Assembly: GCA_948144175.1 (NCBI GenBank) | Contig: CANXME010001298.1 | Span: forward strand, 1,234,614 to 1,298,613 | Direction of reading: 5' to 3' | DNA: 64,000 nt | From: Closterium sp. NIES-65 | Lineage: Eukaryota > Streptophyta > Zygnematophyceae > Desmidiales > Closteriaceae | Shown: piece by piece, positions 15,393 through 42,846 of the stretch | Layout of the letters: every line of letters begins with the position of its first letter | Position numbering within the stretch: position 1 is the stretch's first letter | Position numbers and translations under genes: made by a program | Notes under the pieces: model-generated | Databases searched by the model: none | The model's input: the letters and a program-made list of their open reading frames with translations, nothing else | Told to the model about the DNA's origin: nothing

Positions 15393-15523
15393 TGAGAAAA
15401 TGAGAACGAGAATGAATGAACTATGAGTAAAGTGGGTACAAGTACTAACCCTAATTGGGTTGTACCCCCTATGGGATACCCCACTACAGCCTACACAAAA
15501 GCATAAGCTATAATGTTCTGACA
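15393..15523 (-). repeat. 3' LTR of copia 15393-23142
   Basis: 131 bp beginning TGAGAAAATG and ending TTCTGACA in plus orientation. It is adjacent to target copy CAGTA. Confidence 0.93.
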
Positions 15524-15734
15524 CACCCCCATAGGCAAAGTGGGGGAGAACAGGGGGTCACAAGACCAGTCAAGCAAAGCAAAACAAAGCAAAGCTCAGG
15601 GTGGATCACAAAGTCACCACACATTCCGAGCACAAGTTCAAGGCCACAAGGCCAGTTCACATGCAGGAGTACATATATATATAAGACTAGACAAGCAAGA
15701 GCAGGTATATATATAGGTAACAGTACAAGCTAGG

Positions 15735-18700
15735 TCAAGAGGTGAGCAAGTAAGGCAAGACAGGTACAAGACCAAGCTGGGTGCAGAAGCGCTGATGATC
15801 ACAAGGCGCAAGTGCCTTGGTTAAGACATCAGCAGTGTTGGCCTCAGAGGCCACGTACGCAAGCCGCAACTGACCACGCTGCTGTAGCTCACGAGCAAGG
15901 AAGTAGCGGAGAGCAATGTGCTTTGTTCTGTGCTCCAGTCTCTGCTCTCGACACAAGGCCAGCATGGCCTTGTTGTCTACGTACAGCACTGGAGGAGAAC
16001 GAGGCGGCTCTCCGAGGTCAGTCAGCAGGTAGGTGAGTCAGCGAAGCTCCTGTGCAGCCATGGCCCCTGCGTAGATCTCAGCCTCACAACTGGAGCCGAG
16101 AACAGAAGATGAGCGAGTAGCCCGCCACGAGACAGAGCCGGAACCAAGGCTGAAGGTGTAACCCAGTGACGACCGCTGCGTAGCCTGGTCGTCAGCCCAA
16201 GAAGCGTCTGCATGCCCAGTGAGGACCACTGGACTGCGCCCTCCAAGCACTAGCCCCATGCCCGACGTACTGCAGAAGTAGCGCAACACCCTCTTCGCTG
16301 CAGCCATGTGCTCTGGTCGGTGTCTCCCAGGAGCAACATAGCGTGCGAGAATGCTAAGAGGGTATGCAAGGTCAGGTCGTGTGCAGGTCATCAGGTACAT
16401 GAGGCAGCCAACAAGCTCTGCATACGGGCCACTCGAATCTACGGACTCATCCGAAGGTAGAGCTGAGAGCGAGTGGCGAGTAGGCAGAGGAGTGGCCTGA
16501 GGCGAGGAGTACGAGAAGCCGAAGCGTTGAAGGACCTGCTGCACCATGTGTGACTGAGTCAGGGTAATGTTGCGGCGTGCTCTGTCCCGGGTGATCTGCA
16601 AGCCAAGGTAGCTGCGCAGTTCACCCAGGTCTGTGCACGTGTGTCTCTTCTGCAGCTCGGACTTTACGTAGGCGAGTCCAGCAGTGTCAGCTGTGGCAAA
16701 GACCAAGTCGTCGACGTACACGAGGATGTAGAACGGCGGCAGAGAAGTGTCGGTTCGTAGAAACAGCGACGGGTCGGCAGTAGAAGGAGCAAACCCAAGA
16801 GCCGCAAGCGTAGTCCTCAATGTGTCGTGCCACTCACGTGGCGCTTGGCGGAGACCGTAAACTGGACGTCAGAGGCTCCACTAGGTACCAGGAGGGAACG
16901 ACCCAGTGAAGCCAGGTGGGCGGCGCAGCCAGATCTCCTCGTGCAGGCTGCCCTGCAAGAAAGCAGTGCTGAAGTCAAGAGAGTGCAGCTCGTAGTCACG
17001 GTGAGCAGCTATGTGCAGCAGTACCCGAAGAGTGGTCATCTTCGGGGTGGGAGAGAAGGTCTGAAAGTAGTCAACTCCCTGCCGCTGACTGAAACCACGA
17101 GCCACGTAACGCGCCTTGAAGACAGGCGGAGAACCCAGCGGCCGCTTCACTCTGAAGATCCACATGCCACTGACGATGTTCGCCCCAGGCGGGGGAACCT
17201 CGTCAACGTAGGTGCCTGTGGACTTCCAAGAATCCATCTCTGTGTCCATAGCTGCCTGCCACTGAGAGGAGTAGGGACCCTCTATCGCCTCCGCGTAGGA
17301 GCGCGGAGTCGGGATGTCAAGTGCATCCGGGTCTCCCTCAGGGGTAAGCACTACGGACACGAGATGAGGTGAAGCAGCTGCCAGACACTGGAACTCCTCC
17401 TGCCTGTCCTTAAGGACGTCCGTGCCAAGGGCACACTCACCCCCGACGGACGGAGGACAGACAGACTCAGACTCAGCTACAAGACTAGCAGCGTAGTCTA
17501 GGCGACAGGGAGCAGCAAAGTCGATGAGCTCAGCAACTAGGGCAGACGCAACAGTGGACTCGAAAGAAGGGTCAGTGACGACAGTAGCTAGGAGACGCGT
17601 GACAGTAGGACTGGCAGCACGAAGAGAGTCCGACTCCGGGTCGGCAAGAGCAGGAAGAGAGGACTCAGGAGGAGAAGGCAAAGGGGCACGCAGAGGAGCA
17701 GTGGACGGACGCAGAGACATCCGGTGCGTGCAAGGGACAGGAGGAGGACGCTCACGCGAACCACGACCACTAGCGCGAGCAGCACGGACAGGCGACGTAG
17801 GGCGAGACGCAGGCTCACGACGCTCAGCAAGACCTCCAGTAGGACGAGTGTAGGGAGAAGGAGCAGCCAAAGGGGAGGTAGGCTGCAACTGTAACTGTGA
17901 CGGGACAGGCTGTGGACACTCTAAGGGAGGAGGAGGACCAGTAGAAGGTAGAAGACCAAGAACCTGCTGCAGGAGTGGAACGAAGTACGGTCGAGGCCGC
18001 GTGGCGACGCCAGACACAGCAGGGACAGCACCAGTACCCCCAGCAGGAGCACCCGCTCCAGCAGCACCTCCAGTAGCTCCAGAACCTCCAGCAGCACCAA
18101 GAGCACCCCCAGCAGGACCGCCAGCGGTAGTCTCAGCGCCAACACCCTCAGCAGCACCAGCTCCAATCGAACCCGCAGGCCCAGCAGCTCCAGTACTCCC
18201 AGTACGAGCACCTCCGGGACCAGCGACAGCAGCACCCTCAGTAGCCGAAGAACCTCCAGCACCAGCAACACGGCTCCAGCGCTGGGCAAACCACTCGCGC
18301 AGCTCCTCTGGAGAGAGTGGCTCCCGCAGAGACAAAGCAACCGGAGAACCTCCAGGCGTAGCACCTCCAAGCTCAGCACCCCCAGGCTCAGCACCCCCAG
18401 GTGGAGCACTCCCAGGCACAGCACCCCCAGGCACAGCACCCCCAGGCTCAGCACCCCCAGGCTCATCACCCCTAGGCTCAGCACCCCCAGTCGCAGTACC
18501 CCCAGGCCTAGCACCCCCAATCTCAGCACCCCCAGGCGCAGCACCCCCAGTCTCAGCACCCCCAGGCTTAGCACCCCCAGCAGCACCAGAGTCACCAGTA
18601 ACCTCGACAGGCTCAACAGCGTCTCCTGGGACACACCTGAAGGGGCAGGACCCTGAGGGGGGAGGGGGTCTACCGGGGGGGGACCTGGTACAAGGAAGAG

Positions 18701-21679
18701 CGGGGGGGGGGGGGGGGGACGGAGTGCGGTAGGGGAAGAGGCGGTAGTAGGGGACCGAATCGTCAAACGTGACGTCCTGGGAGGACAGAACACGGCGAGA
18801 GGTGGGGTGGTAGAACTGCCACCCATGCGCGTCAGGGGGGAACCCCAGGAAGACGCAAGGAGCAGCACGAGGGGACAGCTTGTCCGCAAACAAGTCGCGG
18901 ACAAACGCCCGAGATCCCCAGACCCGGAACGCCGACGCATCGCCAACCTTCCTCGTCCACAGCAAGGCTGGGGAGGTCTCCGGCCTGGAGACCCTGGGGT
19001 GTAGGTTGATCTGATGCGCCGCGTACCTCACCGCAAACGGCCACAGAAAATGGGGAGCAGCCGCATGCATCATAGATCTACGAGCGACGTCCATGACCAT
19101 GCCAATGCGGCGCTCAGCAATCCCATTTTGCTGCGGGGAGTCCGGAAGCGTGAAGGTCTGACGGATGCCTCGTGCGTGACAGTAGGCTCTCAGAAGGCCA
19201 GAGGAAAACTCTCCGCCTTTATCCGAGTGTAGACGCAGAACAGGAAAGTCCGAGCCAAAGCTCTGCCTGAGCTGGGGACGAGCTGCGCAGATCCAGTCAA
19301 TCAGCACCTCAGTGACATCACCCTTGCTGCGCAAGGGGAAGACCGCGGTGTAACGCGAGAAGTCGTCAACAACGAGCAGGAAGTAGCGCTCGTGACCCTG
19401 TCCACGGACGCGGGCTGGGCCCCACACGTCCATGTGAAGCGTCTGCAGCGGGGCCTCTGTCGGAGGAAACTGGGAGGAGTGAGGGGCAGCCCGAAGGCGC
19501 CCCTCGACACAGGGGACACAGGTAGGGCCAGGGTCATGAGGAAGGGGAGGGAGGGACCGGGGGAGACTAGAAACAAGAAGACGGGAGGCCATGCCTCTGA
19601 GCCGAAGCAGAGAGGGGTGACCAAGACGGTGGTGCCAGAGGAGAGTCTCGTGAGACAGGAGACGACACGAACAGGGGGCAGACTCAGGACCAGACCTGGA
19701 CGCTGCAGCAAACACCTGACCCGACGCAGCTACCCTACCAGACGCAGCTACTGGAGGAGACGAAGTGGTCAGTGTGTACAGGCTCGACCCTGTCTGACGG
19801 GTAAACGTAGCCAGGTGTCGGCCTGTGCTAGCCTCTGTGCAGTGCGTCACCCGCTGACGCGCAGGAGTGAACTGGTGTACTCTCCCATCCTGTAGGTCAG
19901 CACCAGTCACCAGGTTTGTAGAGAACGAGGGGAGGTAGAGACCAGACAGGGTGCCAGAGGGAGCCGCCGGACACGGGAGGACTGTGGAGAAGTGAGAAAG
20001 GAGAGGACCCCCAGAGGGGTCAGCCAGAGACACCGCAACCGGGCGACGAAGCGGCGTGAGTGTGGTGCGGTCCCGAAAGAAGGAGCGAGAAGCTACAGAG
20101 TCAAGGGTGAAGGTGAGGGAGGCCGAAGCCGACGCAGTACCTGAGAGCGCAGACTCACCAGTACCTGAGGACTTAGACGCACTAGCACCTAGAGCAGTAG
20201 CGTCACAGGCACCTAGGGCAGCAGCCTTACGAGTACCTAGAGCAGCAGTCCCAATGCCCGGATCGGGCGGGAAACATCGGTAACAGTCACCCTCATCACT
20301 AATAGACACAGCATACATGGCTGAAAGAATAGCATCAAAATCAAGATCATAGATAGCAACTCCCGCCCTAGACAGCTCGCCCCAACGAGGGATCTCTGTG
20401 GCCTCCGGGAACTGGCGACGCCACGCGTCCGTCAGGCGGCCAAAGCAGCGCTGGGTGGGGTGCGCAGCCACACACTGCTCACCCGCACGGTCGCCGGTGC
20501 GCAGGACGTAGGTGCACGGACCAAAACCCCCACCCCGCTGGCGTGCAGTGTACCACTCACGGAGCTGCTGAGGGGACAGGGTCTCACGACCGCGCTGCTG
20601 CTGCTGGCGCTGGCCACCACCGGAACCACTCCTCTGCGTAGACCCGCGACCAGCTCCACCGCCACCCCCGCCGCCTCCGCCGCCTCCGCTACCACTGCCG
20701 CCTCCGCCGCCGCCTCCACCGCCACCACCTCCGCCACCTCCGCTCCCACCACCACTGCCGCTGCCACCTCCGCCTCCACTGCCGCCACCGACAGCTCCTC
20801 CCCTACCTCCACTCCCACCGCCACCCCCACTCCCCCGGCCGCCTCCACCTCCACCGCTCTCGCTCGCTCCTCCAACGCCCTTGCCCCCTTTGCCCTTGCC
20901 AGAGCGGCGTCTCCCACTAGGGGCGGACGCCGCACCGACCGACTCAAGACCAAGGAGGTCGGCCGTAGCAGCAGAGGCAACAGAGGGCAGAAGGGGGGAG
21001 GGGGGGCACCCCTCAAAGATGGGGGTGCGCGGGTCACCACGAGAGGCCCCTACAGCGACTATGCTCTTCTCGACCGCTAGAAGGGACTTCTCGAGGAGGT
21101 CAACAGTGAGAGTGGTGGGACAGACTGAGAGGAAGTGGTCCCTGACTACGCGAAGGGAGTCAGGAAGGCGAGTGACTATGTAGTAGAGAGTGATGTACAT
21201 GGGGGGGGGGTTCTTGGCGCAGAATTCAGCAGGAAGCGCAGCACAGTAGCGACTGTCACTAGTGCGGAGGTGCGTAATGAGGTCAGCGACTGTGGGAAAG
21301 GCAGCAAGGTCAGGGAAGAGGTACGGTAGCATGAGACGGCTCAGTGCAGCAGTGGCAGGGGAGGATTAGCGCGCAACTACAGCGTCGTACAAGGTCTGAG
21401 CACTCTTGTATTGACTAGAGTGCGCACGCTCGGAGGTAGGGCGGTGGCGACGCACAGCAAGACGTGCAGCAGCGTCGCGCGTGGCCCACTGGGAGCGAAC
21501 AGTGGCGTCAGCATCAGCAGCAGAGGCAGGAGAGGCGCCAGAGGTGAGGTCAAAGAGAGAGAGAGACCGTCTGCCCTATCGCACTGTAAGAACAGCTGCA
21601 GGTCAGCTACCCAGACGTCAAAGTCAATGGCTCGACCCTCAGCGTCAAAAGCGAGGACACTAGGGGTAGCCATGACCAC
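15735..21679 (-). pseudogene. copia gag-pol coding region (15393-23142 element)
   Basis: Minus strand. Gag begins at about 21679. A glycine-serine-rich tract (about 20640-20880) precedes a C-x13-C-x3-H-x4-C knuckle (20445-20516). Protease lies near 20100, and the pre-integrase HHRLGHPS motif near 19630. The integrase core (LHMDVWGPARVRGQGHERYF) lies near 19440-19380, with QNGIAERRIGMVMDVARR near 19130-19070. A linker (about 18000-18620) holds PGGAEPGGA-type repeats. RT runs about 17200-16050 (LVYVDDLVFATAD near 16710), and RNase H ends at 15735. The domain order is copia. Mostly open, with about three breaks. Confidence 0.88.
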
Positions 21680-22059
21680 AGTAGACTAGTAGTGCAACAG
21701 TAGGGTGAGGTCAGTGTAGCAAAAAGGAGGCACTTTGCTCACCGGTCAGGGCAGCTCGGGCGGCTCGGCAGTAGGGCGGCTCGGCAGATCGGCGGCTCGG
21801 CTACTCGGCAGCTGGGCGGCTCGGCTGCAGTGCGGCTCGGCGGCTGGGCGGCTCAGCTGCAGGGCGGCTTGGCTGCTGGGCGGCTCGGGTGCAGGGCGGC
21901 TCGGCTGCTCGGCTGCTGGGCGGCTCGGCGGCCGGCTGTCTGGCTGCTCGGTTGCCCGGGCGGCTCGACGGTGCTGCTGCAGGGCGGCGCGGCGGTCGGC
22001 TGCTCGGCTGGGTGGGACGAGTCGGGAAACCCGGGCGGCGGGCGGCGCTGCAGCAGGTG

Positions 22060-22790
22060 ACGGGGCCGCAGGTGAGGGCGGCGGGGCCGCCAACGAGAGG
22101 GGCGGGGCCGCAGGTGAAAGCGGCGGGGCTGCAGGTGAGGGCGGCGGGGCCGCAGCAGAGGGCGGCGGGGCCGCAGTTGAGGGCGGCGGGGCCGCAGCAG
22201 TTGAGGGCGGCGGGGCCGCAGCAGTTGAGGGCGGCGGGGCCGCAATTGAGGGCGGCGGGGCCGCAGGTGAGGGCGGCGGGGCCGCAGCAGTTGAGGGTGG
22301 CGGGGCCGCAGGTGAGGGCGGCGGGGCCGCAGTAGTTGAGGGCGGCGGGGCCGCAGTTGAGGGCGGCGGGGCCGCAGCAGATGAGGGCGGCGGGGCCGCA
22401 GTAGTTGAGGGCGGCGGGGCCGCAGGTGAAAGCGGCGGGGCCGCAGGTGAGAGCGGCGGGGCCGCAGCAGAGGGCGGCGGGGCCGCAGAGAAGGGCGGCG
22501 GGGCCGCAGTTGAGGGCGGCGGGGCCGCAGCAGTTGAGGGCGGCGGGGCCGCAGTAGATGAGGGCAGCGGGGCCGCAGTAGTTGAGGGCGGCGGGGCCGC
22601 AGGTGAAAGCGGCGGGGCCGCAGGTGAGAGCGGCGGGGCCGCAGCAGAGGGTGGCGGGGCCGCAGAGAAGGGCGGCGGGGCCGCAGTTGAGGGCGGCGGG
22701 GCCGCAGCAGTTGAGGGCGGCGGGGCCGCAGTTGAGGGCGGCGGGCCGCAGGAGAAGGGCGGCGACGGGCCGCTTGTGAAAGGGCGGCGC
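22060..22790 (-). repeat. GC-rich 18-24 bp tandem array in copia leader
   Basis: About 30 copies of a core GAGGGCGGCGGGGCCGCA separated by GT or GCAGT variants. Units are 18, 21 or 24 bp, all multiples of three, so the plus strand stays open without meaning. The array lies between the primer site and gag of the copia element, in its transcribed leader. Confidence 0.88.
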
Positions 22791-23011
22791 GACGCGGCCG
22801 TTAGGGCTACGCGACGCGGCCGTAAGGGCGGCGCGACGGGCCGCTAAGGGCGACGCGACGGGCCGCTAAGGGCGACGCGACGGGCCGCTAAGAAGGGCGC
22901 GACCCTAGGCGCGCTTCGGGCAGGGGCAGGACGCGCCCCGGGCAGGAAAAAAAAAAGGAGGATCGGTGGGCCCTAGGAACAGTTCCCACGAGGGAACCTG
23001 CTCTGATACCA

Positions 23012-23142: not shown

Positions 23143-25302
23143 CAGTACCCTCCTTATTCGGCCGAGTGTGGTCGATTGCGTGAACTGGCACAATAACTCG
23201 GTGAGGGCCGGTTGTGTCGGGCGAGCGGCGTGACCTGTCAGTAGAGGGCCCGTCTTGTACTTACTTCCTGCGTTTCCCTTCTGCTTGGTCTGTTTCTGCT
23301 GCTCAGCTTCCCCCTTTCCCTTAGCGTTTTCCGGGCATTCGCTCTTGCGGTGTCCCGACCTGTTGCACGCAAAGCAGCACCCTTTGAACGGTGCAGCAGC
23401 GGCGTTTGCGGCGACAGCGTGTATCGTGGCATGCTCGTTTGTCCCACGAGGCCGATGTCCCCAGCTACTATTGTTTCCGTTGGACCCCGATCTCGATCGG
23501 CGGAGGAAATCGAGTTTTTCCGCCATAGCGAGGATTTCATTGAACTCGGTAGCATTGCGCAGCTCGATCTCTTGAGCAATTTTGTGCTTCAAGCCGCCGA
23601 TGTAGTGGTCGATACGCGCAATGCCAGAAACTCGCTGGTGTAGTCCAGGACAGAACCGAGGTGATGCTAAGTGCGGAGCCTCTGACGCGCTGCGATAGAA
23701 GCCGCAGTTGGCTTGAATCTCGCGCGCAGACCTGCTCACCATGCATCTGTCACATTTGTGTGAATGTGAATGGTAAGGAGGTTGCGTATAGGAGGATTAA
23801 AATAGTGTATATATTGTATATAGTGAGTCAGTGAAGCGCGAGGATGGGAGCCAAAAGGTCAGTAGGGGTTTTGCGAAGGGAAGGCGGAGAGGAAGGCTGA
23901 CGCTTGCCGAGCCAGAGGGTTGGAGGGTTGCATGGGGGAGAGGGTGGGGCGGTACTTACGTAAGCAAGAGGGTGCTGGCAAGGGGAGGTAGTGGAGAATA
24001 AGGCAACGGCAGCAGGAAGGCAGTCACACCACCAGCAACGGATGGGTGTAAGAATACATGCGTGTTTGTTTACATGTGTGTGCAAGATTGCTCCTAGGAG
24101 CCAGCTGGATCTGGATGATGGCAGCTGGAGGCAAAGTAGCAAGGGCTTGGACAGGATGGCAAGAGGCAGCACTGATGCAAGTCTACTCATGGAGGCTTAT
24201 AGCCACTAGCGTGTACACTTGGATATGGCGGGACAGAGATTAGGTGGAGGAAGAGCTGGTAGAATAGGCGGGACCTTGGAAGCTCTTCTCATTGCTTGTA
24301 TGTTTCCCTTTTTACACGAGTGTTTTACTGCAAACTGAGCAAGCGGCGAAGCTAGGGAGATATGACGAGCAAGATTTCTGTAGGCTAAGGAACTGGAGAA
24401 CCATGTGTTTATGAAGGAGCAGAGAGCTCATCACATACAAGCAATTTGTGGACGGACTAGGGTATGCCCACGAGGTCAGGATTGGACTTTGCTGCAAAGG
24501 ATCTGCTAGTAGAGACGAGGACGATGGAGGGTGACGGGAAGAATGAGCTCGAGACCGGTGGGGAGACGGTCGCACAAGGCGCGGAAGGAGGTGTCACGGA
24601 GAAGTCGGGCGGAGCCACGGGCTCCGGTGTCGAACGCAAACCTCCGCGCGGAACGGAGAGGGAGGGAGTGAGCGCCGGGGCGGAGAAGCCTGCCTCCGAG
24701 GAAGGCGCCGCGTCGACGGGAGGAAGAAGAGGGAGCGATCGGCCATACCAGCGCAGTGCTTCGTGGGAAGGCTTCGAAGAGGAGGTGGCTTTGACGCGAT
24801 GGGGTTACACGATGCTCTCGAAAGTGGAGGTACCAAAGCGATTCATAGGAGAAACGCGGTGCGGGCCGTCCTTGAAGAACTGCCTAATGTAGATGGAGAA
24901 CATGCGGGCGCGATGGGAGCGTGATCGACTGGCTGAAGATGATTTCTTCAAAGGCCTGGCTAACACGCTGACGGGAGAAGCTGAGACATATTACCGAATC
25001 TGCTGGCGCGAACTACTGGATTGGGCAGAGGAAGGAAGGGCGGGGGAGCGGGATCCCAGGAAGCGATTCTTAGAGATGCTGCGAGATCAGTTTCTGCCGC
25101 AGACGCCAGAGCGGGTCGTTGAATTCCGAGACTTTAGACCAAAAAAAGGAGAGTCTCTTCTGACGCATTACGGGCGGCTGGTGGAGCTAATAGAGGATAT
25201 GAATTGTGTGGATCAAGGACGCCTCATCAGCAAGTTCCTAAACTGTCTGAACTATGAGCTGCAACGGGACGTGCAGGTGAAGATCTTCAAGATGGGAGCA
25301 GC

Positions 25303-25479
25303 TGTTAGAATAGTAAGCACAGTGAGGAGCCATAGCTAGGGTTTAGCTAGCTAGGCAAGAGAGAAATGAACAAAGGAGCGGTTTTCACTAGCAGTAGTTG
25401 GGATACATATAGCAAACTCTAACAGGGTTGTACTCGCTATAGAGCACCCCACTACAGGCTAGATAATAATATTCTGACA
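25303..25479 (-). repeat. 3' LTR of non-autonomous element
   Basis: 177 bp, preceded by GCAGC and followed by the polypurine hairpin. Confidence 0.9.
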
Positions 25480-26548
25480 CACCCCCATAGCCAAAGTGGG
25501 GTGTAATCAGCAGAGCACGCAGTCATAGAGCAGGTTCACAATTGCAAGCAAAGCTAGAGGCTATCACAGAGGGCAAGTGAGGAGGAGGAGAGACTGTGGG
25601 GGCGAGAAGATGGGAGGCGGCTGCTGAAGCTGCAGACACACAGGAGCTGCTCGCTCAGTGGCTACCGAAGCAAGGGCCCGGACTACAGGAGTAACTGGCT
25701 CCGCGAAGATTGTAGCCTCCTGACTGGAGCAACTGACCCACAGGCGACTGGCGACTACCGGAGATTGTAGCCTCCGGACTACTGGCGCTACTGACGACAC
25801 GACGGCTGCCTCCACTCAACCTCCCCCAGCTGCCCCACGCCCCTATCACACACCCCCTGCTACACCCCTAGTTCCATTCCCACGACACCTCCCTAGCACC
25901 TCTCCTTCGGCTCCCACACACCCACCCCCTTGAGCGGCAGCTGCAGCAGCGGGAGACGGAGGAGGAGGAGGAGTAGTGGAACGGCGCATAGAAACTGCAC
26001 CCCCATACCCCCCACCCCCAAACCCTAATTCAGGAGAACGGGCAGCAGCAGGGGTGGGGCGCCGTCAGAAGCACGGGGGACAGCGGGCAGCTCAGGGGCA
26101 GAGAGGAACGGGCCGCCCACGGGCTTGGCACAGCCAGACGAACCGTGCGCAGGCGGCCCGAGCCGCGCGCGGGCCTGGCGCAGCCCGTACGGGCCGCGCG
26201 CGGGCCGGGCGCAGCCCGTACGGGCCGCGCTCGGGGCTAGCGCAGCCCGCGCTGGCCGGGACAGGCGACCGGGGACGACGGGCTGGTCCCCGTCGCCCGT
26301 CGAAGCGCCCCCCGGGGGCGACGCGCGGACCGACGGGGCAGAAAGCCACCGCGCGCCTCGGGGCGCACGGCGGGCAGAGAACCGCCGCACGCCCCGGGGC
26401 GCACGGCGGGCAGAAAACCGCCGCGCGCCTCGTGGCGCACGGCAGGCAGAAAACCGCCGTCGCACGCCACGGGGCGTGCAACACACAGAGTAGCAGCGGA
26501 AGCAGTGAGGTGGGCCCACAGGCCAGGAGCGTGAATGCTCTGATACCA

Positions 26549-26725
26549 TGTTAGAATAGTAAGCACAGTGAGGAGCCATAGCTAGGGTTTAGCTAGTTAG
26601 GCAAGAGAGAAATGAACAAAGGAGCGGTTTTCATTAGCACTAGTTGGGATACATATAGCAAACCCTAAGAGGGTTGTACTCGCTATAGAGCACCCCACTA
26701 CAGGCTAGATAATAACATTCTGACA
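26549..26725 (-). repeat. 5' LTR of non-autonomous element
   Basis: 177 bp, preceded by the primer site and followed by GCAGC. Confidence 0.9.
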
Positions 26726-28754
26726 GCAGCTGCTACGCTGAGAATCACATACGAAACGGCAAAAAGGGTGGAAACAGGCAGATGGTTGTTTGAGGTGGAA
26801 TAAACGGGAGAGAGATCGGTGGACAGACGGAGGCCGGCATGGAGCGCTAGCCCAGCGAACGACCGCGGAGAGGCCCAACAGACGCAAGGAAGTGTCACAA
26901 CGGCAAGGGCGGTCACCTGAGGCGCCGCCGAGAGGCCTGACGACGGCAAGGGCGGTCACTTGAGGCGCGACTGCGGCAACCCCCCAGCATGCTCCGTCTG
27001 CGGCAAGGAGGATCATCTAAGGAGGGAATGCCCCGAGGCTCCCACGTGGTTGAAGTGTGGACGGAAGGGTCACGGAGAGCGGGACTGTAACTCGCGACGA
27101 GGGGACACTAAGGAAAAAGGGGAGATGGCGGAGATGCGTACGGAGATTGAGAGGCTATGAGCTCAGCTGGAGGAGCGAGAGAGGGGAACAGAGAAGAGGC
27201 CGGCCATGGTGGCAAGGGAAGAAGAGGAGGAGGACAGAAGGGAAGAAGAATTCCGCCTGAAGGCCAGGCGTGCCAAGGAAAGAGACGAATTGGGCCTAAG
27301 GCCTAGGGAGAGGTACCTGAGACAGCGAGTGGAGGAGCAACAGGAGTATGGGTCAAGACGGCGGGTAGGAGAAGCCAAGGAAGGTTTACCACTGCGACGA
27401 CACCCTTTGGAGAGGCTCAGCTGCGCGGCGTCAGTACTGGTGGCGGAGAAGGGCTACATAACGGTGGGAGGTCTACTGGTGAAGCATGCCATAATTGACA
27501 CGGGCACACACCCAGTGCTAATAGGGAAGCGGCTAGCAGAGCGGCTACAGCTGGATAGGCCAAGGAGGCAGAAAGCCGAAGGGCTAGTGTTGATGACAGC
27601 GGAGGGCGGAGGAACCAAGTGGATGCCAAAGACGCGGGCTACAGTCGAGATAATGATTAGGTGGGGAGGTCCAGAGGAATGCTCGGCGAAACAGGAGTGC
27701 GGCATTTCACCGTCAGAAGATTATGACCTGCTCTTGGGAGTCGAGTTCCTTTACAGCATCGGCGCGACTTTCTACATGTGGGAAGAGAAGCAGCTGTATC
27801 GAGTGACATATTGGGAATATGATGGACCCCTGGCGGAGTCGCCAGTGTGCTTCATTCGCCGCGAGCCGCGGGAGGCCTACCAGGCGGAAGTAAAGACGGC
27901 AGAGCATGAGCTGGGGCAGGTGAACTGGGAGGAGTTGGAGGAGGAGAGGTGATATCATGACTGGCACAGGCAGCAGTGGGGGGAAAGTGGGAGCTTGAAG
28001 CAACTTCACCTGGACAACAGTATGTTTCAGAAGCCGATTGTGCTCCAGGAGTTGTTTGGAGGCATCAGCACGGGATTGGCGGCGGTGTTGAAGGCGCGGC
28101 TGCGAGTAGAGAAGTACATCTACGTAAGCACCATATCAAGAAATTGGAAGAGAGGTATTCCCCACAGCTGTACGAAGGAGCGGTAGACCGAGGGGCAGAG
28201 TGATCTGTCATTACGTGGAGGATGTGGAGGAGGAAGCCCTGGCCCACTGGGGGCACATTGACTTAGTGGTAGCAGGTTGGGAATGTCAAGGGCTGTCACG
28301 GGCTGGGGATCGCACCGTCGTCGTCGTCTTCGTCGTTGCGGGCGACGCCATCACTAGCCGCACTCAAGGGTTGCCCCACACTTCGATGCTGTGATGCCTG
28401 ACGTGCGGGTTCTCAGTGCGTCCCTTGTGTTTGTGACTGTGCTTGTTGTGCTCGTGCGACGTCGTTTTGCATGGACGTTTGTTCTGCCGTTAGCACCGCA
28501 ATTTCTTCGGAGCTTTCGTTCAGTTGCTGCAGCAGTTCGTTCAAGCGTTCCTGTGTGAGCGTCGTGACGTAGATGTGCTCGGCCATTTTGAAGGGCGTCG
28601 GCTCAACTTACTTCTAGGCGCAGTCGTGGCAGCACGCGTTTCGAGAGAAGGCGGGGACAACGGCTCCTAGGTGCTAAGGGGCGTAAGTCCCTTCGAGTAC
28701 GAGATCAGAAGTTGATTTCCTAGGTGCGGAGAATGCGCGGTCCGAAAAGATGGT

Positions 28755-28785
28755 GGCTCTGATACCAAGTGTTACGGGTGCGTAC
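28755..28785 (-). other. Primer site and first LTR block of the base gypsy
   Basis: GGCTCTGATACCA (28755-28767) is the reverse complement of an initiator-Met primer site. TGTTACGGGTG at 28770 starts the LTR, which is broken off at 28785 by the copia insertion. It resumes at 34891. Confidence 0.8.
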
Positions 28786-29222
28786 TGTTGGGAACAAACA
28801 ATCTTAAGCGCCTCTGTCGTGTCGAAACACCAACGTACAAGCGAAGCAGAGCATATCGAGGCACCAGCGAGTCAACCCTCAGAGGTTGAAGTAACCGCTG
28901 GAGGTTACACAAAAGTCAAAGGTCAACGACCTTTGACTTGACAAATGCAGCGCGACAGCAAGGACACACAACTGACTCGACATTGAGCAGTTGCCCGAGT
29001 CGCACTGTATCGAACCGCAACAGTAAAACAGTTTAATTATATCTCTTCGTATTCTTTGTACTCTTATATAAACCTTTGTACATGCTTGTTTTAAACAACT
29101 TACTTTGCCCTCACATACCAGCGCAAGGTGGTTCAAGGACTTCATTTAAACGCTTCCGCTACTACATCACTCTACTCAGAGTTTAACCCTACCAAAGATC
29201 CTCAGGGGCGCTCAGCCCAACA
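28786..29222 (+). repeat. 5' LTR of copia 28786-34885
   Basis: 437 bp. It contains a perfect 12-bp inverted repeat (28913-28939) and a TATATAAA box (29065-29072), giving a likely U3 promoter. Confidence 0.93.
28913..28939. promoter_or_regulatory. 12-bp perfect inverted repeat with W-box cores in LTR
   Basis: Arms AAGTCAAAGGTC and GACCTTTGACTT are separated by AAC. Each arm carries TTGAC/GTCAA cores like plant WRKY-binding W-boxes. The same structure is kept in the other LTR at 34576-34602 with loop AGC. Confidence 0.6.
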
Positions 29223-29285
29223 TGGTATGAGAGTTGGTTAGGGTTACAATTATTTCTCCTTAACACCTATTACTCACCAAGAGAC

Positions 29286-32200
29286 ATGTCTACCAGAAAG
29301 GAGAGGAGCTCCTCCAACGGCTCTCCTGGTACTACTCCTACTCCACCTCGTGCCTCTGGCCTACAGACAGAGGAAGGCACAACAACGAGACCGGCAGCTG
29401 GGTCTACTGAAACACCCGCAAACCAAGGCGCGGGCTTCGATCCAAGCATGATGGAGAAGTTCTTCTCCTTCATGTCCTTCTACGAGCAGCATCAGCAAGG
29501 AGCACCTGCGCAATCAAACAACAGCAACAACAACAACAACGTGACGCCCATGAGTCTCGATGGCTCATCCTACGCACGCGGGAATCAACAACTGCAACCT
29601 ACCTTCGCTCCGTACGAGCCCCAGCGCGGCTCCGTCAGCTTCATGCCACAACCACAACCTGCACCGGGACAAGAGAGAACGCTGGACGCACTACAAGTTC
29701 AGTCGCAGTTCGCGCACGTTCTAAAACTGCAAACGACAAAACCCTTCGACGGGAAGGATTTCTTTACCTGGTCGTTTGAATTCAACCTGATGATGGAAGG
29801 AGCGCAAATCCTTGGCTTCTTCGACGGGTCCCTGCCATACCCAACAAACGGCACACAGTATGAGAAGCAGCAGTACACCTATCAATCGATGATGGCGTAC
29901 ACGATACTACTGAGGAACACCACTCCAACTCAACAACAAAACATACGGTCTTACCGAGGCTACGGCAACTCCGCGGAGCTCGCGTACAATCACTTGAAGA
30001 GCCTGTATCAAGCAACAGACAGCGTAAACCAAAGTCGGTTAATGGCGCAGCTGACAACAATCGAAATGAAACCAGGCGAGAAGGGAATGGCGTATATCAG
30101 TCGCTGCCGCGAGCTGCGCGACAAGCTTCTTCGATGTGGAGGATCGATTTCAGAGGACGCCTTCGTCACGGTTGTCATCGGCGGTCTTGGTCCTCACTGG
30201 CGCTCCACTCGCGCCATACTACGAGCCCACGGGAAAATTTTTGAAGCAGCACTTTGCGCCGAAATCCACGCCGAGCAGCAAGACATGGACCTGCAAGAAG
30301 AACGACACAAGAGAAAGGTATCAGTGCCCGAATTCGCGTTTCACACTTAACGGCACCACAACAACAACAACAATCGATCGAAAATCGTACCTCCGTTCTG
30401 CCACCTCTGCAAGACTTCAGGGCATCCTCGTACGCACTGCCTGAATCGACAACAGTCAACGTCGCCGCAACGCCAACTTTGCCCTTCAAGCAGTCAAGTC
30501 GCCTCAACGCAAGCAAATCCGACAACTTCAGTACAAGTCTCAACAACATCGACGAGACAACCTGCGAAAGGAACAAACATCATCAGCTGCATGGCAAGGC
30601 TGAGTGACTCCTGCGTAACTGAGTCACCACCACATTACTCACCAGAAGAACAACCCGACATACACCGCCATCGCTCAAAGCGAGCCGTCCAGGAAGGATA
30701 CATGGTTCTTGGACAGTTGTTGCGGACAACATATGTGCTCTTCAGGACGTTTCGTTCAACGCGAGCACCAACTTCAACGAGAAGTCGTCATCACTGTCGC
30801 CAATAATCAGAACCTGCGCACACGACGACAAGGAGTAGTGCAACTTCAGTCACGAGAGACGAATGTCATACTGCAAATGTCCAAAGTCCTAATAGCAGAA
30901 GGACTTGGCTACAACTTACTGAGCGTCAGTCAGTTGATGGCGAAAGGCATACATCTGGAAGCCGACAGTACCACCCAGGAGTTCAAGCTGTACCACGGGA
31001 AGGGCGGCCTCTACATCGGAAAGGCGGTCCTGAAGAACAATGTCTTCGTTCTCGATTTCGTCCCAGACCTGGGCACCGCAGACAGTGACGGGATCGTCAC
31101 CTTCACATCTTGGATGCACCCGCCGGATCTCGACCCTGACTTCAGTCCGGAAGGCTTTTGGTATTCACATACCATTCCTGAAGCAGAACGAACACGTGCG
31201 TTAGTAACAATACAAAATTCGGCAGCAGCAGAGACAACATCGGCAGCAGCAGAGACAACATCGGCAGCAGCAGAGACAACATCGGCAGCAGCAGAGACAA
31301 CATCGGCAGCAGCAGAGACAACATCGGCAGCAGCAGAGACAACATCGGCAGCAGCAGAGACATCATCGGCACTAGTAGGAACAACAACAGTAGTAGCAAC
31401 AACGACGCCAGTCCTCGTTGACGAAGCACCACCAACACCCGCACAGCAGCTGAATCCGGCTCAACGGGAAGTCCATAGAAGCGCAAACTTCACCGCCAGC
31501 TTCTACTCCAACTCTGACGCGTGTCGACGCTCACTCGGACACCGCGCCTCCGAAGACATCTGGCACGCACGCATGGGACACCCAAGCAACACTGTGTTAA
31601 ACAACACAATAAGAGTAGGAGTCCTTGACAAGGACTCGTTACTACTACTCGACGGCAGAGAACTTCAACGGGCACGAGGAACATGTCTTACCTGCCCCGA
31701 AGCCGACTTACCACATCGGCCGTTCACTCCTCATCACAACCCGAGCGCACCCGCGTACGCACCACTCGAAAAGGTGTATAGCGACATCCTGTACAATCTG
31801 GAACCAGGACAAGTAATATACAACTACACAATCACCTTTATGGACGCCGCCACCCGTTACGTCTGGCATCTAAACCTACCCAGCCGCGACATGGTCCTCG
31901 AAGCATTCGCTGCTTGGCTACCAGTAGCAGAAAGAGAGTCGGGCGTAAAGCTGAAAAGCTTCCAGTCTGACGGAGGAGGAGAATACACCTCTCAGCGATT
32001 CAAGCAGTACCTGGCGGAAAGGGGAATCAAGCCGCTCCTCTCTCTTCCCTACGCCCATCAGCAGCAAGGTGTAGCAGAAAGAATGAACAGGACTCTGCAG
32101 AACAGCATGCGCAAACTGTTACGTGGCATGCGGCTACTTAACCACCAGTGGCCTGCAGCAATGGACCACGCCGTCATGCTGCACAACTTGCTGTCGTCAT

Positions 32201-34373
32201 CATCGCTTCCGAACAACGCATCACCGCATCTGCTATGGACACGAAAACAGGGCAGCACAAAAATGTTACGAGTGTTCGGATGCATGGTACAGTACCGACC
32301 CCCAGCAGCACGAGCGGGCCGATTTTCTCAACGCGCACAGTGGGGACTACACCTCGGCATCAAAAAGAACTACAACGCGTGGAAAATCTTAGACGTCCAC
32401 TCCAAGGAAACAGAAGCAGCACGCGGCGTCATTTTCTACGAACGACTCACGCTCCAGACATACCTTGCCAACCTGCAAGAGGACCAAGATCCCACAGGTG
32501 GTTTTCGTGGTGACCGAGCCTTCGCCTCACCAGCGGACGAAGCTGACTGGGACGAGCAAAATGTGGCCAACGCATCAGAAGAAGCTGGACCCCTTCCGTT
32601 CTGCTCCGTCGACGTCCCCATGGACGAAGATAACCCTCGCGAAAGTGTCAACGCCGAAACCTTCTACTACTTCGCCGACAACGGTTACGTAACACCTGCG
32701 ACAGTCAACACCAACGAAGCAGAACGAGTAGGACCGAATTTCATACCTGATCCAGAAGCGGGAGATGAAGCCGCTTATCCCGAGGATGCAACTCTTCCCT
32801 GCTACTCACAGACTGGACTGCAGATTCTCGGACTCGTCACCGCAGTCCACGGCAACACTCTTCCTAAGGAGCCTGCGACGGTTCAGCAGGCTCTGGGGGG
32901 GGAACACAGGGAAAAATGGCGTGAAGCCATGGACAGAGAGTTAAAGGCGCTGGAGGAACGGAACACATGGAAAGTTGTCCCCATCAGCGTGGCAAGGAAC
33001 AAGACCATTCTCACCGGGAAATGGGTCTTCCGCGTTAAAACAAAAGCAGACGGCACAATTGAGAAGTTCAAAGCACGCTGGGTTGTGCGTGTGTTTGATC
33101 AGGAGCACGGACGAGACTTCACCGAGACATTCGCCCCGGTTAGCCGACATACCTCACTTCGAATCCTCCTCGCGATCGCCGCCATGAAGAAAAGGAAGCT
33201 ACGGCAAATCGATGTCGCCAACGCGTTCCTCTACGCACCTGTCGACGCGGAAATCTTCGTCGAGCTCCCACACGGTACCAACGGGGAACCTAACCAAGTC
33301 TGTCAACTGCTGAAATCGCTTTCGGGATCAAGCAAGCTCCGCGGCTATGGCAACAGTTCCTACACGCTCGCCTCATTCGCATCGGATTCCGCCAACTACC
33401 TCACGACCAAGGAATGTACCGACTCACTAAAGACACCGACTACATTCTGCTGATCGTCTACGTAGACGACCTACTCTACATCGGCTCCACTGACGACATC
33501 ACCACCTGGTTCGAAGGGGAGCTACAGAGGGACCTCACACTCACGGTCTCCTCTACCGTCACACAGTACCTCGGCTTAAACATTCGGGAAGAAGAAGGCG
33601 CGATCTACCTCAACGCCGCTAAGTACGCCGACACCATCGCCAAACGCTTTGTGCTCACACCTACCACCTTCTCTACGCCCTACCGCTACGAGACAGGAAA
33701 CCACAAGGAAGGATCCTCTCCACTCAAATCCGCCGGGATACGCGACTACCAGAGAAAGCTGGGCTGCCTTCTTTTCGCAGCCGTCACCTGCCGCCCAGAT
33801 CTATCCTACTCCGCAAGCCAGCTCGCCACTTACCTCAAGAAGTCTGAAGCAGAACACCTGGCGGAGCTCGACCGCGCTCTCCACTACTTTGTCAGTACCT
33901 CAACGATCGGCCTAAGCTACTACAAGAACACAACCACACCGACTAAATTAATTGGCTACGTCGACGCTGATCACGCTGGCGACTCAGACAATAGGCGCTC
34001 CTGCACTGGCTACATCTACCGCCTCGAACCTATCGAACCGATCTCCTGGCAATCGAGCAAGCAGGAATTAATTGCTCTCTCGTCAGCTGAAGCATAATAT
34101 ATTGCACTCTGCTCAGCCACTAAGGAAGGACTCTATCTTCGCGAGTTGCTGGAAGAAGCGAAGTTAGCCGAGTTACCCAACTTCACTCTGTTCTGCGACA
34201 ACCAATCTGCAATTCGCATCGCCAACAAAAATGGATTCGCGAACAGAACGAAGCATATCGCTCTGCGATATTTCTTCGTGAAAGACGAGATTGAGAAGGG
34301 GAGACTTGAACTATCCTACTGTCCCACGTCCGAGATGGCAGCTGACTACTTGACCAAGAAGCTCGGAAAATAG
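29286..34373 (+). pseudogene. copia gag-pol coding region (28786-34885 element)
   Basis: Gag starts at 29286. It carries a copia gag core (KPFDGKDFFTWSFEFNLMM; YNHLKSLYQATDSVNQSRLM) to about 30350. A protease-type region follows about 30690-30960, then a spacer with seven TSAAAET repeats (31219-31370) and a pre-integrase motif (HARMGHPS near 31570). Integrase runs about 31770-32200 (FQSDGGGEYTSQRFKQYL; HQQQGVAERMNRTLQNSM), RT about 33000-33560 (LLIVYVDDLLYIGS near 33448), and RNase H about 33955-34340. A few breaks, otherwise complete in order. Confidence 0.88.
31219..31370 (+). repeat. 21-bp tandem repeat coding TSAAAET
   Basis: Seven near-identical 21-bp units (core ACATCGGCAGCAGCAGAGAC), in frame in the copia polyprotein between protease and integrase. 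Confidence 0.9.
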
Positions 34374-34448
34374 AAGTTCGAGTACTACATGCTGCTGACT
34401 GGACAAAGCCACGTCACCAGCAGCGACACTCCAGAAAGCGAAGGGGAG

Positions 34449-34885
34449 TGTTGGGAACAAACAATCTTAAGCGCCTCTGTCGTGTCGAAACACCAAGGCA
34501 CAAGCGAAGCAGAGCATATCGAGGCACCAGCGAGTCAACCCTCGGAGGTTGAAGTAACCGCTAGAGGTTACGCGAAAGTCAAAGGTCAGCGACCTTTGAC
34601 TTGACAAATGCAGCGCGACAGCAAGGACACACAACTGACTCGACATTGAGCAGTTGCCCGAGTCGCACTGTATCGAGCCGCAACAGTAAAACAGTTTAAT
34701 TATATCTCTTTGTATTCTTTGTACTCATATATAAACCTTTGTACTTGCTTGTTTTAAACAACTTACTTTGCCCTCACATACCAGCGCAAGGTGGTTCAAG
34801 GACTTCATTTAAACGCTTCCGCTACTACATCACTCTACTCAGAGTTTAACCCTACCAAAGATCCTAAGGGGCGCTCAGCCCAACA
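34449..34885 (+). repeat. 3' LTR of copia 28786-34885
   Basis: 437 bp. It keeps the same inverted repeat (34576-34602) and TATATAAA box (34728-34735). Confidence 0.93.
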
Positions 34886-34890
34886 CGTAC

Positions 34891-35399: not shown

Positions 35400-36260
35400 C
35401 GTTCCATCTCGTCGCGCTGCCCTAGCGGCCGCGTCGCGCCGCCCTCGCGGCCCCGATCCGCCGCCCTAGCGGCCCCGTCACCTACCCCTGCGGCCCCGGC
35501 GCCGCACATCCTGGCCCCGGCTCCGCCCTTCCTGGCCCCGGCGCCACCTCGGCTGGCCCCGTCGCCTACCTCGGCGACCCCGACGCCGCCCTTCTCGACC
35601 CGGCCCCGCCTCTGCTTGCCCCGTCGCCTGCCCCTGCGGCCCCGGCTCTGCCCTTCCTGGCCCCGGCGCCACCTCGGCTGGCCCCGTCGCCTACCCCGGT
35701 GACCCCGACGCCACCCTTCCCGACCCGGCCCCGCCTCTGCTGGCCCCGTCGCCTACCCCTGCGGCCCCGGCGCTGCCCTTCCCGGCCCCGGCGCCACCTC
35801 TGCTGGCCCCAACGCCGCCCTTACCGGCCCCGGCGCCGCCTCTACTGGCCTCGTCGCCTACCTCTTCGGCCCCGGCGCCGCCCTTTCCGGCCCCACCGCC
35901 GCCTCTGCTGGCCCCGTCACCTACCTTGCGGCCCCGGCGCCACCTCTGCTGGCCCCGTCACCACTAAACCCGGCCCTGCCGCCGTCACCAAGCGGCCCCG
36001 CCGTCACCACCGAGCCGCCGGCGCTGCCGAGCTGCTACCGAGACGCCCGAGCTGCAGCGCCACCTGAGCCGCCCGAGCCGCCGAGCTGCAGTTGCTGCCG
36101 AGCCGCCGTACCGCCGAGCCGCCCGAGCCGCCGAGTCGCCGAGCCGCAGTTGCCGCCGAGCCGCCCGAGTCGCCCGAGCCGCCGAGCCGCAGTTGCTGAC
36201 GAGCCGCCGTGTCGCCGAGCCGCCCGAGCCGCCCGCACCGCCGAGTTGCCGAGTCGCCGA
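35400..36260 (+). repeat. GC-rich leader arrays of the short-LTR copia
   Basis: The first block (about 35430-35990) repeats GGCCCCGGCGCC/GGCCCCGTCGCC motifs in units near 30 and 60 bp. The second (about 36010-36260) repeats GAGCCGCCGAGCCGCAGTTG-type units. Both lie between the primer site and gag. Confidence 0.85.
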
Positions 36261-36401
36261 GCCTGCTCTTCCCACCACTGGTGAGCCCCTGCCCTGCTAG
36301 CGCGCTGCCCGCCACTTGCTTACCTGCCTGCCTGCCTTTCGGCCTGCCTGGCTGCCTGCCTTACTGCTGCTACTCCTGCTCCTGCTTCTACTGGCGGAGC
36401 C

Positions 36402-39400
36402 AGATGCAGCCCCAGCGACGTCCGCGTGAGTCCCTCACGCCCCAGCAGCTGCGTGAGTGGTATGCTGGTTGGGATTGTAGGGGTGGCGGCGCTGCTACTG
36501 CTACCACTACTGCTGCTACTACTACTGGCGGCGGCCAGATGCAGCTCCAGCGACGCCCACGCGCGTCTCTCACGCCTCAGCAGCTTCGTGAGTGGTACGC
36601 TCAGAGTAGAGGGTCTCACAGTTCTGTTCACTGCTCTTACGTGATTCGCAGTGGTGCTCGGACTGGTCAGCCTTGTGGGACACCTAGTCACACACAGTCC
36701 CGCTGCTTCGCCCGTCTGAGCGACGCCTGGCGTACCGAGTTTGGCGACGAGGCTGAGCTCCCCGACTGGGTGGAGTTGCTGAGGAAGAGGGTAGATATAT
36801 TTGCTCTTGACTATGATGCTATTCTCACTGCCATGTATGCATTGCCTACTAGTGCTGACCGTGCCGGTCACCTGTGCGTACCGCGTGACCCGGGTGTGAA
36901 GATAGGTAGGTAACGATAGTAGCCATAGCTAGGACTAACCTAGCTAGGCAAGAAGAAGTTAGGCAAAAGAGAGGGGTTGTACTAGCAAGCAATGAGATAC
37001 AAATATGAAACCCTAAGGGGTTATACTCGCTATATGAGTAGCCCACTGCAGGCTAGATAACAAATATGACATTCTGACACACCCCCATAGCCAAAGTGGG
37101 GTGTAATCAGCAGAGCAAGCAAAACAGAACAAGCTCAGGGTGGATCACAATGTCACCACACAGTCTGAGCACAAGTTCAAGCAGCAGTAGTATAAAGTTC
37201 ACAGTTATAAGCAAAGCTAGAGGTAGTCACAACGGGCAAGTGAGGAGGAGGAGAGAGACTGAGAGGAGAGGAGATAGGAGGCGACGGATGAAGCTGCAGA
37301 CACACGGGCAACAGGAGGCAGACTGGCACAGCGGCTACCGGACGAAGCCCCCGGACTACAGGAGTAACTAGCCCCGCGGCTAAAGTAGCGGCAGACGAGC
37401 AACGGACCCACGGGCGGCTGGCACAGCTGGCTACGACTGGGCTACCGGACGAAGTCCCCGGACTACAGGTGCTGCTAGCAACACATCGGCATCCTCCATT
37501 CAGCTTCCCCAGACTGTCCTACTCCCCTTGGCACACACCCACTGCTACACCGCTAGCTCTCCTCCCCTTCCCCCCCCCTTAGTATCACTCCACCGGCTCC
37601 ACCACAATCACCCCCCCCTCAGCGGCAGCTGTAGCACAAGGAGACGGAGGAGGAGGAGGAGCAGGGAGTGGTACTGAGGAGGGTCACCCCCATACTCCTC
37701 ACCCCCAAACCCTAAAGTAGGAGAATGGGGAGTAGGAGGGGTAGGGCGGTAGTAGAGGGACTGGGAACAGCGGGGAGGGCAGGGAAGGTAGGAAACGATA
37801 TGACATTCTGACACCGGGTATAGAGCCTGCTGCTCTAGCTGCAAGTGAGGCTGCTGCTCTGGGCGCTAGTGAGTCTCCTGCTCCAGATACAGGTGCAGCT
37901 GCTGCTCTAGGTGCTAGTGAGTCTGCTTCCTCAGGTGCGGGTGAGTCTGCTCTCTCAGGTACCGCGTCGGCTCCGGCCTCTCACACCTTCACTCTTGACT
38001 CGGGGGCTTCCCGCTCCTTCTTTCGAGACCGCACCACACTCACGCCGCTTGGTCGGCCAGTTGCAGTCTCTCTGGCAGACCCCTCTGGGGGTCCTGTCCT
38101 TGCTCACTTCTCCACTGTCCTCCCGTGTCCGGCGGCCCCCTCTAGCACCCTGTCTGGTCTTTACCTCCCCTCGTTCTCTACGAACTTGGTGAGTGGTGCT
38201 GACCTACAGGATGCGGGGGTTCACCAGTTCACTCCTGCGAGTCAGCGGGTGACCCACTGCACGGACGCTCGGACAGGCCGACACCTGGCCACGTTTACAC
38301 GTCGGCCGGGGTCGAGCCTGTACACGCTGACCACTGCGTCTAATCCAGTCACTGCGTCTGGTCAGGTAGCTGCGTCGGGTCAGGTGTTTGCTGCAGTGTC
38401 CAGGTCTGGTCCTGAGTCTTCCCCCTGCTCGTGTCGTCTCCTGTCTCACGAGACTCTCCTCTGGCACCACCGCCTTGGTCACCCCTCCCTGCTTCGTCTC
38501 TGAAGCATGGCCTCCCGTGTCCTTGTCTCTGGTCTTCCCCGGTCCCTCCCTCCCCTTCCTCCGGGGCCTGGCCCTACCTGCGTCCCCTGTGTCGAGGGGC
38601 GGCAGCGGGCTACCCCTCACTCCTCTCAGTTTCCTCCGACAGAGGCCCTGCTGCAGACGCTTCACATGGACGTGTGGGGCCCGGCCCGCGTCCGTGGACA
38701 GGGTCACGAGCGCTACTTCCTGCTGGTGGTTGACGACTACTCGCGTTACACCACAGTCTTCCCCTTGCGCAGCAAGGGTGATGTCACTGAGGTGTTGATC
38801 GACTGGATCCGCGCAGCTCGTCTCCAGCTCAGGCGGAGCTTCGGCTCGGACTTTCCTGTTCTGCGTCTGCACTCTGACAGAGGCGGAGAGTTCTCCTCTG
38901 GCCTTCTGCGAGCATACTGTCGTCCACAAGGCATCCGCCAGACCTTCACGCTTCCGGACTCTCCAGAGCAAAATGGGATTGCTGAGCGCCGCATTGGCAT
39001 GGTCATGGACGTCGCCCGTACGTCCATGATGCATGCGGCTGCCCCCCATTTTCTGTGGCCGTTTGCGGTCCGGTACGCGGCGCATGAGATCAACCTTCAG
39101 CCCAGGGTCTCCATGCCGAAGACCTACCCAGCTTTGCTCTGGACGGGGAAGGTTGGCGATGCGTCTGCGTTCCGTGTCTGGGGATCTCGGGCGTTTGTCC
39201 GCGACTTGTGTGCGGACAAGCTGTCCCCTCGTGCTGCTCCCTGCGTCTTCCTGGGTTTCCCCCCAGACGCGCAAGGGTGGCAGTTCTACCACCCCACCTC
39301 TCGTCGTGTTCTGTCCTCCCAGGACGTCACGTTCGACGAGTCGGTCCCCTACTACCGCCTCTTCCCCTACCGCACTCCGTCCCTCCCCCCGCCACCGCTC

Positions 39401-42778: not shown

Positions 42779-42846
42779 CGAGCAACGGGTGCTGCTGTAC
42801 GCGATGTTGATGGTCACGGTAAGCAATGTCGAGAAAATTCCCTACA

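Follow-up and report, generated by a model that had tools for sequence, protein, structure and literature searches.

The 64-kb stretch of DNA analysed here (the window) contains, on its plus strand, the N-terminal part of a C5-cytosine methyltransferase (DNMT), motifs I to IV, located directly after the protease of a gypsy retrotransposon (27953–28310). On balance, and taking the explanation as a whole, we consider it probable that this 5′ remnant is one dead copy of a large, recently active Ty3/gypsy-type family of DNMT-bearing elements in a Closterium-like alga. Cytosine methylation is a main weapon of hosts against transposons, which makes a transposon with a methyltransferase of its own a standing puzzle. 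The longer, partly recently inserted relatives described below carry the DNMT at the same place, so that a rare and puzzling gene capture proves common in this alga, which belongs to the group sister to land plants: the genome holds at least 127 matches, many in long open frames and some with near-identical terminal repeats.

The copy in the window is a decayed 5′ part comprising repeat A1, gag, zinc knuckles, protease and the N-terminal part of the DNMT. Its decay is apparent in stops, a distribution over three frames, nested insertions and a cut-off at about 28310. The features are, in order of position:

23747–24435, plus strand: A1, the 5′ terminal repeat of the gypsy element with the DNMT, roughly 690 bp long (blastn against repeat A1 of copy L042, whole length, 69%).
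24461–25300, plus strand: N-terminal part of gag, with a stop at 24890 (tblastn of P0001 residues 2–252 to 24560–25312, 69%; open reading frames).
25303–26725, no strand assigned: insertion in gag, a GC-rich body between direct repeats at 25303–25479 and 26549–26725, 96.6% (self-comparison, sequence).
26954–27158, plus strand: gag tail and zinc knuckles, one CCHC intact by pattern (pattern; tblastn of P0001 246–709 to 26720–28132).
27161–27949, plus strand: aspartic protease (IIDTGTHPV), its frame closed by a TGA at 27950 (DTG motif; sub-cut-off matches to PF13975, E 1e-4, and PF13650, E 0.0015).
27953–28126, plus strand: DNMT piece 1 in the protease frame, motif I (ELFGGISTGLAAVLK) and VEKYIYV (tblastn of P0001; motif alignment).
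28129–28200, plus strand: DNMT piece 2 in a second frame, HHIKKLEERYSPQLYEGAVDRGAE (tblastn of P0001 719–742, 75%).
28203–28310, plus strand: DNMT piece 3 in a third frame, motif IV (AGWECQGLSRAG), and end of the element (tblastn of P0001 744–779, 83%).
28311–28785, minus strand: 5′ part of another LTR element, cutting off the DNMT, with gag start at about 28585, primer site at about 28757–28769 and LTR from 28770 (by eye).
28786–34885, plus strand: copia element inside the LTR of the minus-strand element (LTRs 97.25% identical; CGTAC duplication at 28781–28785 and 34886–34890; Pfam RVT_2, rve).

The 1.4-kb insertion that splits gag has 177-bp terminal direct repeats and looks like a small non-autonomous LTR element; related repeats also occur at 7690–8355 and 36918–37784. 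At the DNMT end the nesting is twofold, the minus-strand LTR element starting from about 28310 and its LTR having later been struck by the copia element. No reverse transcriptase (RT) or integrase of the DNMT family is found in the 64-kb window, where other gypsy-type RT and integrase matches show about 25–35% identity over their length and one match of 50% corresponds to the copia-like N-terminus of P0002; the remnant is therefore a dead 5′ fragment. Another gypsy element of the window (45148–46851, minus strand) serves as an internal control, its protease being followed by RT with no DNMT match between them. The window further holds two copia-type copies in opposite orientation (15390–20248 and 37851–42779, 90% identical), the first overlapped by a minus-strand open frame of 1494 aa (16884–21365). 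Two very regular 20-bp tandem arrays of 56 and 21 copies (54131–55839, 99% matches) leave several frames open, and imperfect, mutually inverted 21-bp GC-rich arrays at 22041–22866 and 35437–36263 are about 66–70% alike. A search of the window for RNA families gave none at the gathering score.

An earlier sequence-only reading had described one peptide with motif I and VEKYIYV and another with motif IV. Both are present, but in different frames: LQELFGGISTGLAAVLK...VEKYIYV occupies the protease frame (27953–28126), HIDLVVAGWECQGLSRAG lies in a different one (28203–28306), and HHIKKLEERYSPQLYEGAVDRGAE stands between them in the third. That reading was also right that the start of the domain alone is present, and that gag and protease precede it; of the two zinc knuckles it counted, however, one is intact by pattern (P0001 has three CCHC stretches). 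Taken alone, the window pieces are not significant. In Pfam, piece 3 matches PF00145 with an E-value of 0.23, below the cut-off, and piece 1 has no match; among PDB sequences, the best match of piece 1 is a DNMT3 enzyme (E 0.92), and for piece 3 a DNMT3 enzyme (E 1.5) ranks second to an antibody chain. With the sequences of relatives, by contrast, the match to C5 methyltransferases becomes significant. The 44 residues around motif IV retrieve two proteins of Closterium sp. NIES-54, P0001 (E 5e-13) and P0002 (E 2.5e-12), at 83% identity. P0001, a gag–CCHC–protease–DNMT protein according to Pfam, is colinear with the window from 24560 to 28310, the E-value being 1e-98 over the initial part of gag and 9e-180 over the gag tail, protease and three DNMT pieces. 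With these significant relatives the window pieces are settled as DNMT, and the claim of a C5-methyltransferase directly after a gypsy protease is confirmed. A chance resemblance, or a gene lying beside the element and forming no part of it, would agree with the insignificance of the isolated pieces, but is refuted by the colinear match, by the presence of the DNMT at the same place in all fetched copies and by the single open frame running through protease, DNMT and RT in copies L033, L037, L041 and L044; we give it practically no weight.

Searches of the 874-Mb assembly (2400 contigs) reveal how widespread the family is. Since the P0002 query itself contains a DNMT, separate RT-only and DNMT-only searches were run. 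The DNMT-only query gives at least 127 matches, each covering at least 247 of 312 residues and some with stops, and the RT-only query at least 110; both are minimum counts, in which some places duplicate each other. By the PF00145 profile, 123 genome matches exceed the cut-off; by table count, 44 lie within open frames of at least 1000 aa. With P0002 as the query, 35 RT places were tabled, 34 with an upstream DNMT in the same table and the 35th with a DNMT in its fetched copy. Pairing was then assessed between 46 RT places of at least 78% identity and those DNMT places, 57 of the 127, of at least 68% identity. The expectation that the domain always sits between protease and RT is borne out in 15 of 15 fetched copies and, at 35 of the 46 closest RT places, by a DNMT on the strand of the RT match, 604–720 bp upstream of it. 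Five of the 11 RT places without a listed DNMT were inspected: two have a complete but frameshifted DNMT, one a mostly deleted one, and two have none within 2 kb upstream. Related copies lacking the domain, which would count against the earlier reading, thus exist as a minority that arose, in the cases inspected, by deletion or truncation, whereas most copies carry it. In the deleted case, L047 (G000:C2400:558800-560800), residues 695–969 of the L041 polyprotein are unmatched and the flanking parts are kept; judged from its sequence, this copy is a natural DNMT-minus derivative. Stand-alone DNMT genes were considered for the 22 of 57 DNMT places without a listed RT within 2.5 kb, and rejected for the two inspected, both of which have a frameshifted family RT just downstream.

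Fifteen copies of 10 kb each were fetched, representing 11 distinct sites, as flanks are common to L033/L034/L035, L037/L039 and L042/L043. Every one shows the order gag/protease–DNMT–RT/RNaseH–integrase on one strand; Pfam gives the full order in P0016 and matching halves in P0001 and P0002, so that the polyprotein has the gypsy-type gag–PR–RT–RH–IN (DDE) composition. Open frames of 1978, 2138, 2150 and 2281 aa occur in L033 (starting inside gag), L037, L041 and L044, respectively, the other copies having stops or frameshifts. All four open-frame copies examined have the protease DTG, RT Y-I/L-DD, CCHC and H2C2 motifs, as well as integrase motifs and motif IV; in L033 the patterns caught one integrase motif. 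The elements of L033–L035 (C1892, C1616) lie inside a tandem satellite, at offsets of some 31 and 62 bp, and C1616 carries two like DNMT copies 22.4 kb apart. An assembly error or contamination, the elements stemming from another organism, is very improbable given the 127 matches on many contigs, the 4-bp target duplications described below and the closest named proteins, which come from six Closterium strains (NIES-53, -54, -65, -67, -68 and Naga37s-1).

Profile and fold comparisons support a DNMT3-type C5 methyltransferase inside a gypsy element as the identity of the window domain. A profile built from 14 uninterrupted DNMT domains has DNMT3A/3B as its best PDB match (E 2e-13), followed at lower rank by 4onj, a ‘DNA methyltransferase’ (6.5e-7), M.HhaI (1e-6) and DRM2 (3e-4). 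The AlphaFold model of the domain (pLDDT 70, pTM 0.73) retrieves DNMT3-family chains or complexes in all 50 Foldseek matches listed, the best with E 1.2e-11 and a TM score of about 0.6. Open frames, profile and predicted fold thus concur in a Dnmt3-type DNMT within the Pol frame. The catalytic domain of animal DNMT3A/3B is the best match by both profile and fold, yet identity in the fold alignments is about 20%, and Pfam lists no PWWP or ADD domain for P0001, P0002 or P0016. Most of the printed rows retain motif I, the HRxR stretch, motif X and the glutamate of ENV, and 59 of 60 domain rows, close relatives and fragments among them, retain the catalytic cysteine of motif IV. There is, however, a widespread change beside this cysteine, WECQG instead of PCQ: the 60 rows read xEC in 47 cases, xSC in 4, xPC in 8 and WPY in 1, glutamate or serine replacing proline in 51. 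In the profile alignments, Closterium WECQG or WSCQG stands against SPCN of animal DNMT3. In known enzymes the residue that precedes the catalytic cysteine is, to our knowledge, almost always proline, and exchanging this proline for glutamate or serine could weaken or change catalysis.

The DNMT of intact copies is under purifying selection. Among 18 uninterrupted domains retained from 33 stretches, stop-bearing or short ones having been dropped, the median dN/dS is 0.148 (14 of 153 pairs with 0.05<dS<1, range 0.03–0.56; 128 pairs saturated), compared with 0.107 for RT (28 of 465 pairs) and 0.141 for integrase (24 of 435 pairs); because domains with stops were dropped beforehand, low values are favoured. 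Close pairs (0.02<dS<0.3) give medians of 0.25 for DNMT (19 pairs), 0.13 for RT (35) and 0.23 for integrase (37), so that constraint on the DNMT in recent copies is weaker than 0.148 implies. These data bear on a different reading, in which the DNMT is catalytically weak or dead and is kept for nucleic-acid binding, for the arrangement of RT and integrase or for chromatin-steered integration. The altered residue beside the cysteine is in its favour, as is a published yeast test of the Klebsormidium enzyme that was negative (PMC5890265); the near-universal cysteine, the other conserved motifs and a dN/dS similar to those of RT and integrase argue against it, and we regard this reading as unlikely.

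The elements have an unusual terminal organization. In 13 of 15 copies (9 distinct sites) the arrangement is A1–ORF–B1–A2–B2, with A of about 565–685 bp and B of about 140–230 bp; the 10 kb fetched for L041 and for L044 revealed no repeats. Most elements start with TGTCG (TGTCAC or TATCAC in L042, L043 and L045) and end with CGACA. The B1–A2 joint reads CGACAGCTGTC in all 13 copies with repeats, extending to the full palindrome CGACAGCTGTCG in nine and continuing with another base in the remainder. This CGACAGCTGTCG joint resembles the junction of a two-LTR circle. A purine run, GGGAGGGGGCA, lies just before B1 in 11 of 12 copies printed and is absent from L045, and inspection by eye of the same number of printed copies gave no TGG at a common place after A1 that could represent a tRNA primer site. 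Target duplications of 4 bp, read by eye, flank 8 of 9 distinct sites (CACG, AAGC, AGAA, AAAC, CCAG, CCAG, TCCC and CTTC), the ninth (L045) being ambiguous in its flanks. K2P distances between A1 and A2 range from 0.003 to 0.038 (12 copies), with values of 0.003–0.005 in L031, L032 and L038; some insertions are therefore young. We infer that the B–A joint would serve either as a template regenerating the element ends or as a cut site in a circular form. Split repeats, a DDE integrase and a 4-bp duplication together pose a question about replication.

As to what the enzyme may do, we tentatively propose, with slightly less than even confidence, that it methylates the element's own cDNA de novo. 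The protease would free the DNMT inside the particle, where it would meet new double-stranded cDNA from the neighbouring RT and would methylate it de novo before or at integration; a new copy would thus enter the genome already with the host's mark. Catalytic activity, packaging and substrate of the DNMT are here inferred. De Mendoza et al. 2018 propose either cDNA methylation or a moderation of the element (PMC5890265), and the Closterium family, with a selected enzyme next to RT, fits the first of these. CpG observed/expected ratios of the DNMT elements (0.67–0.81, 12 copies) are not distinct from that of the window (0.82) or of three copia elements (0.64, 0.65 and 1.02); another gypsy stretch has 1.17. 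Nor is there an excess of CpG transitions among substitutions between paired A repeats: they make up 22 of 111 (three insertion sites being counted twice), compared with 4 of 13 for the LTRs of a copia element. Neither measure lends support to self-methylation. The moderation suggested in PMC5890265, by which the enzyme tempers the element, marking new copies for host silencing, limiting damage and favouring both element and host, would accord with a high copy number and many open frames, which suggest long coexistence with the host; the youth of some insertions (L031, L032 and L038) speaks against it, and we rate it as improbable, slightly more so than a weak or dead enzyme. A related published idea is that retrotransposon accessory domains serve the host against viruses (PMC6338049). 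Methylation of the element's own cDNA remains our preferred proposal.

Relatives from environmental samples add a second architecture. Among 47 proteins or translations with both domains (seven of them local copies), 36 have the DNMT before RT and 11 the reverse order. All 11 are environmental proteins, and 10 have a PHD finger in precomputed Pfam lists (P0020, P0027, P0030, P0034, P0035, P0038, P0039, P0046, P0047 and P0053); a G-patch domain is listed as well for P0035 and P0039. The three that were scanned, P0027, P0034 and P0035, show RT, RNase H, DNMT, integrase and PHD in that order. These PHD polyproteins share with the Closterium family a related DNMT, a gypsy RT, RNase H, mostly an integrase, and motif IV of the xEC type in 8 of 10; they differ in that the DNMT follows RT and, in the three scanned, that the integrase is followed by a PHD finger. 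In the RT tree (35 rows, unrooted with the rows used; the DNMT tree has 41 rows and no outgroup), 10 of the 11 RT-before-DNMT proteins, without P0053, group together (99/97), separate from the clade of Closterium type (97/95), and a third group contains DNMT-less gypsy elements together with P0053, on a long branch. The environmental protein P0032, with the DNMT before RT, joins the PHD-type clade (97/94); with WPYQG as its motif IV, it lacks the catalytic cysteine. The environmental order may be another arrangement arising from one and the same capture, or the result of a separate one. Searches for relatives with the DNMT profile matched 17 stretches by pattern in viral contigs, none confirmed, and 54 stretches in a prokaryote genome collection, none confirmed, so that at this sensitivity neither viruses nor bacteria yielded a donor. 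More speculatively, Klebsormidium and Closterium may share one old capture in a streptophyte-wide gypsy lineage that unites three oddities (a DNMT3 inside Pol, terminal repeats that are split, and a DDE integrase making 4-bp duplications); its integrated form would arise from a permuted or circular intermediate that is cut or copied at the internal CGACAGCTGTCG joint and that the ECQ-site DNMT would mark before integration. We hold this scenario to be doubtful.

Precedent for retrotransposons with captured cytosine methyltransferases in charophytes and dinoflagellates, which the sequence-only reading had invoked, does exist in print: PMC5890265 reports DNMT-bearing transposons in one charophyte and in dinoflagellates, and PMC12344493 repeats this, naming Copia and DIRS types. 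Closterium goes unmentioned in the available portions of both, those of PMC10407611 contain none of the terms ‘methyltransferase’, ‘gypsy’ and ‘LTR’, and those of PMC11096116 offer no link; literature on Closterium, retrotransposon and DNA methyltransferase yielded no Closterium DNMT retrotransposons. Not found in print, and thus apparently new, are the Closterium host, the copy number, the combination of 4-bp duplications and split repeats, the ECQ motif, and the PHD relatives from the environment with the DNMT after RT, the duplications and the ECQ motif being judged against literature on split direct repeats with gypsy and integrase.

The closest known system is KnitGypsy-Dnmt3 of Klebsormidium nitens, described in PMC5890265 as gypsy elements with Dnmt3 in Pol and DIRS-like repeats. 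It shares with the Closterium family the gypsy domain set, a Dnmt3-type DNMT in the Pol frame, DIRS-like repeats and purifying selection on the DNMT, so the kind of element was already known; the host is different, and no Klebsormidium-named proteins occur among the protein matches of motif IV and of the family relatives. Set against KnitGypsy-Dnmt3, known here by its published description, the Closterium side offers the 127 DNMT matches, the consistent position between protease and RT, the 4-bp duplications and a motif IV mostly with glutamate. The KnitGypsy-Dnmt3 enzyme showed no activity in yeast, a result that its authors call inconclusive (PMC5890265), whereas the same source states that SymbioDIRS-Dnmt3 DNMTs methylate CG in yeast. 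As described there, SymbioDIRS-Dnmt3 of Symbiodinium resembles the Closterium family in its Dnmt3-type DNMT in Pol, its A–coding–B–A–B repeats and its many copies, and differs in a tyrosine recombinase instead of a DDE integrase, in its dinoflagellate host and in that yeast activity (PMC5890265). Split direct repeats are likewise common to DIRS retrotransposons and the Closterium family. In contrast, the DIRS hallmarks of a tyrosine recombinase and no target duplication are absent from the latter: P0002 and P0016 contain an rve integrase, and the Pfam lists hold no tyrosine recombinase.
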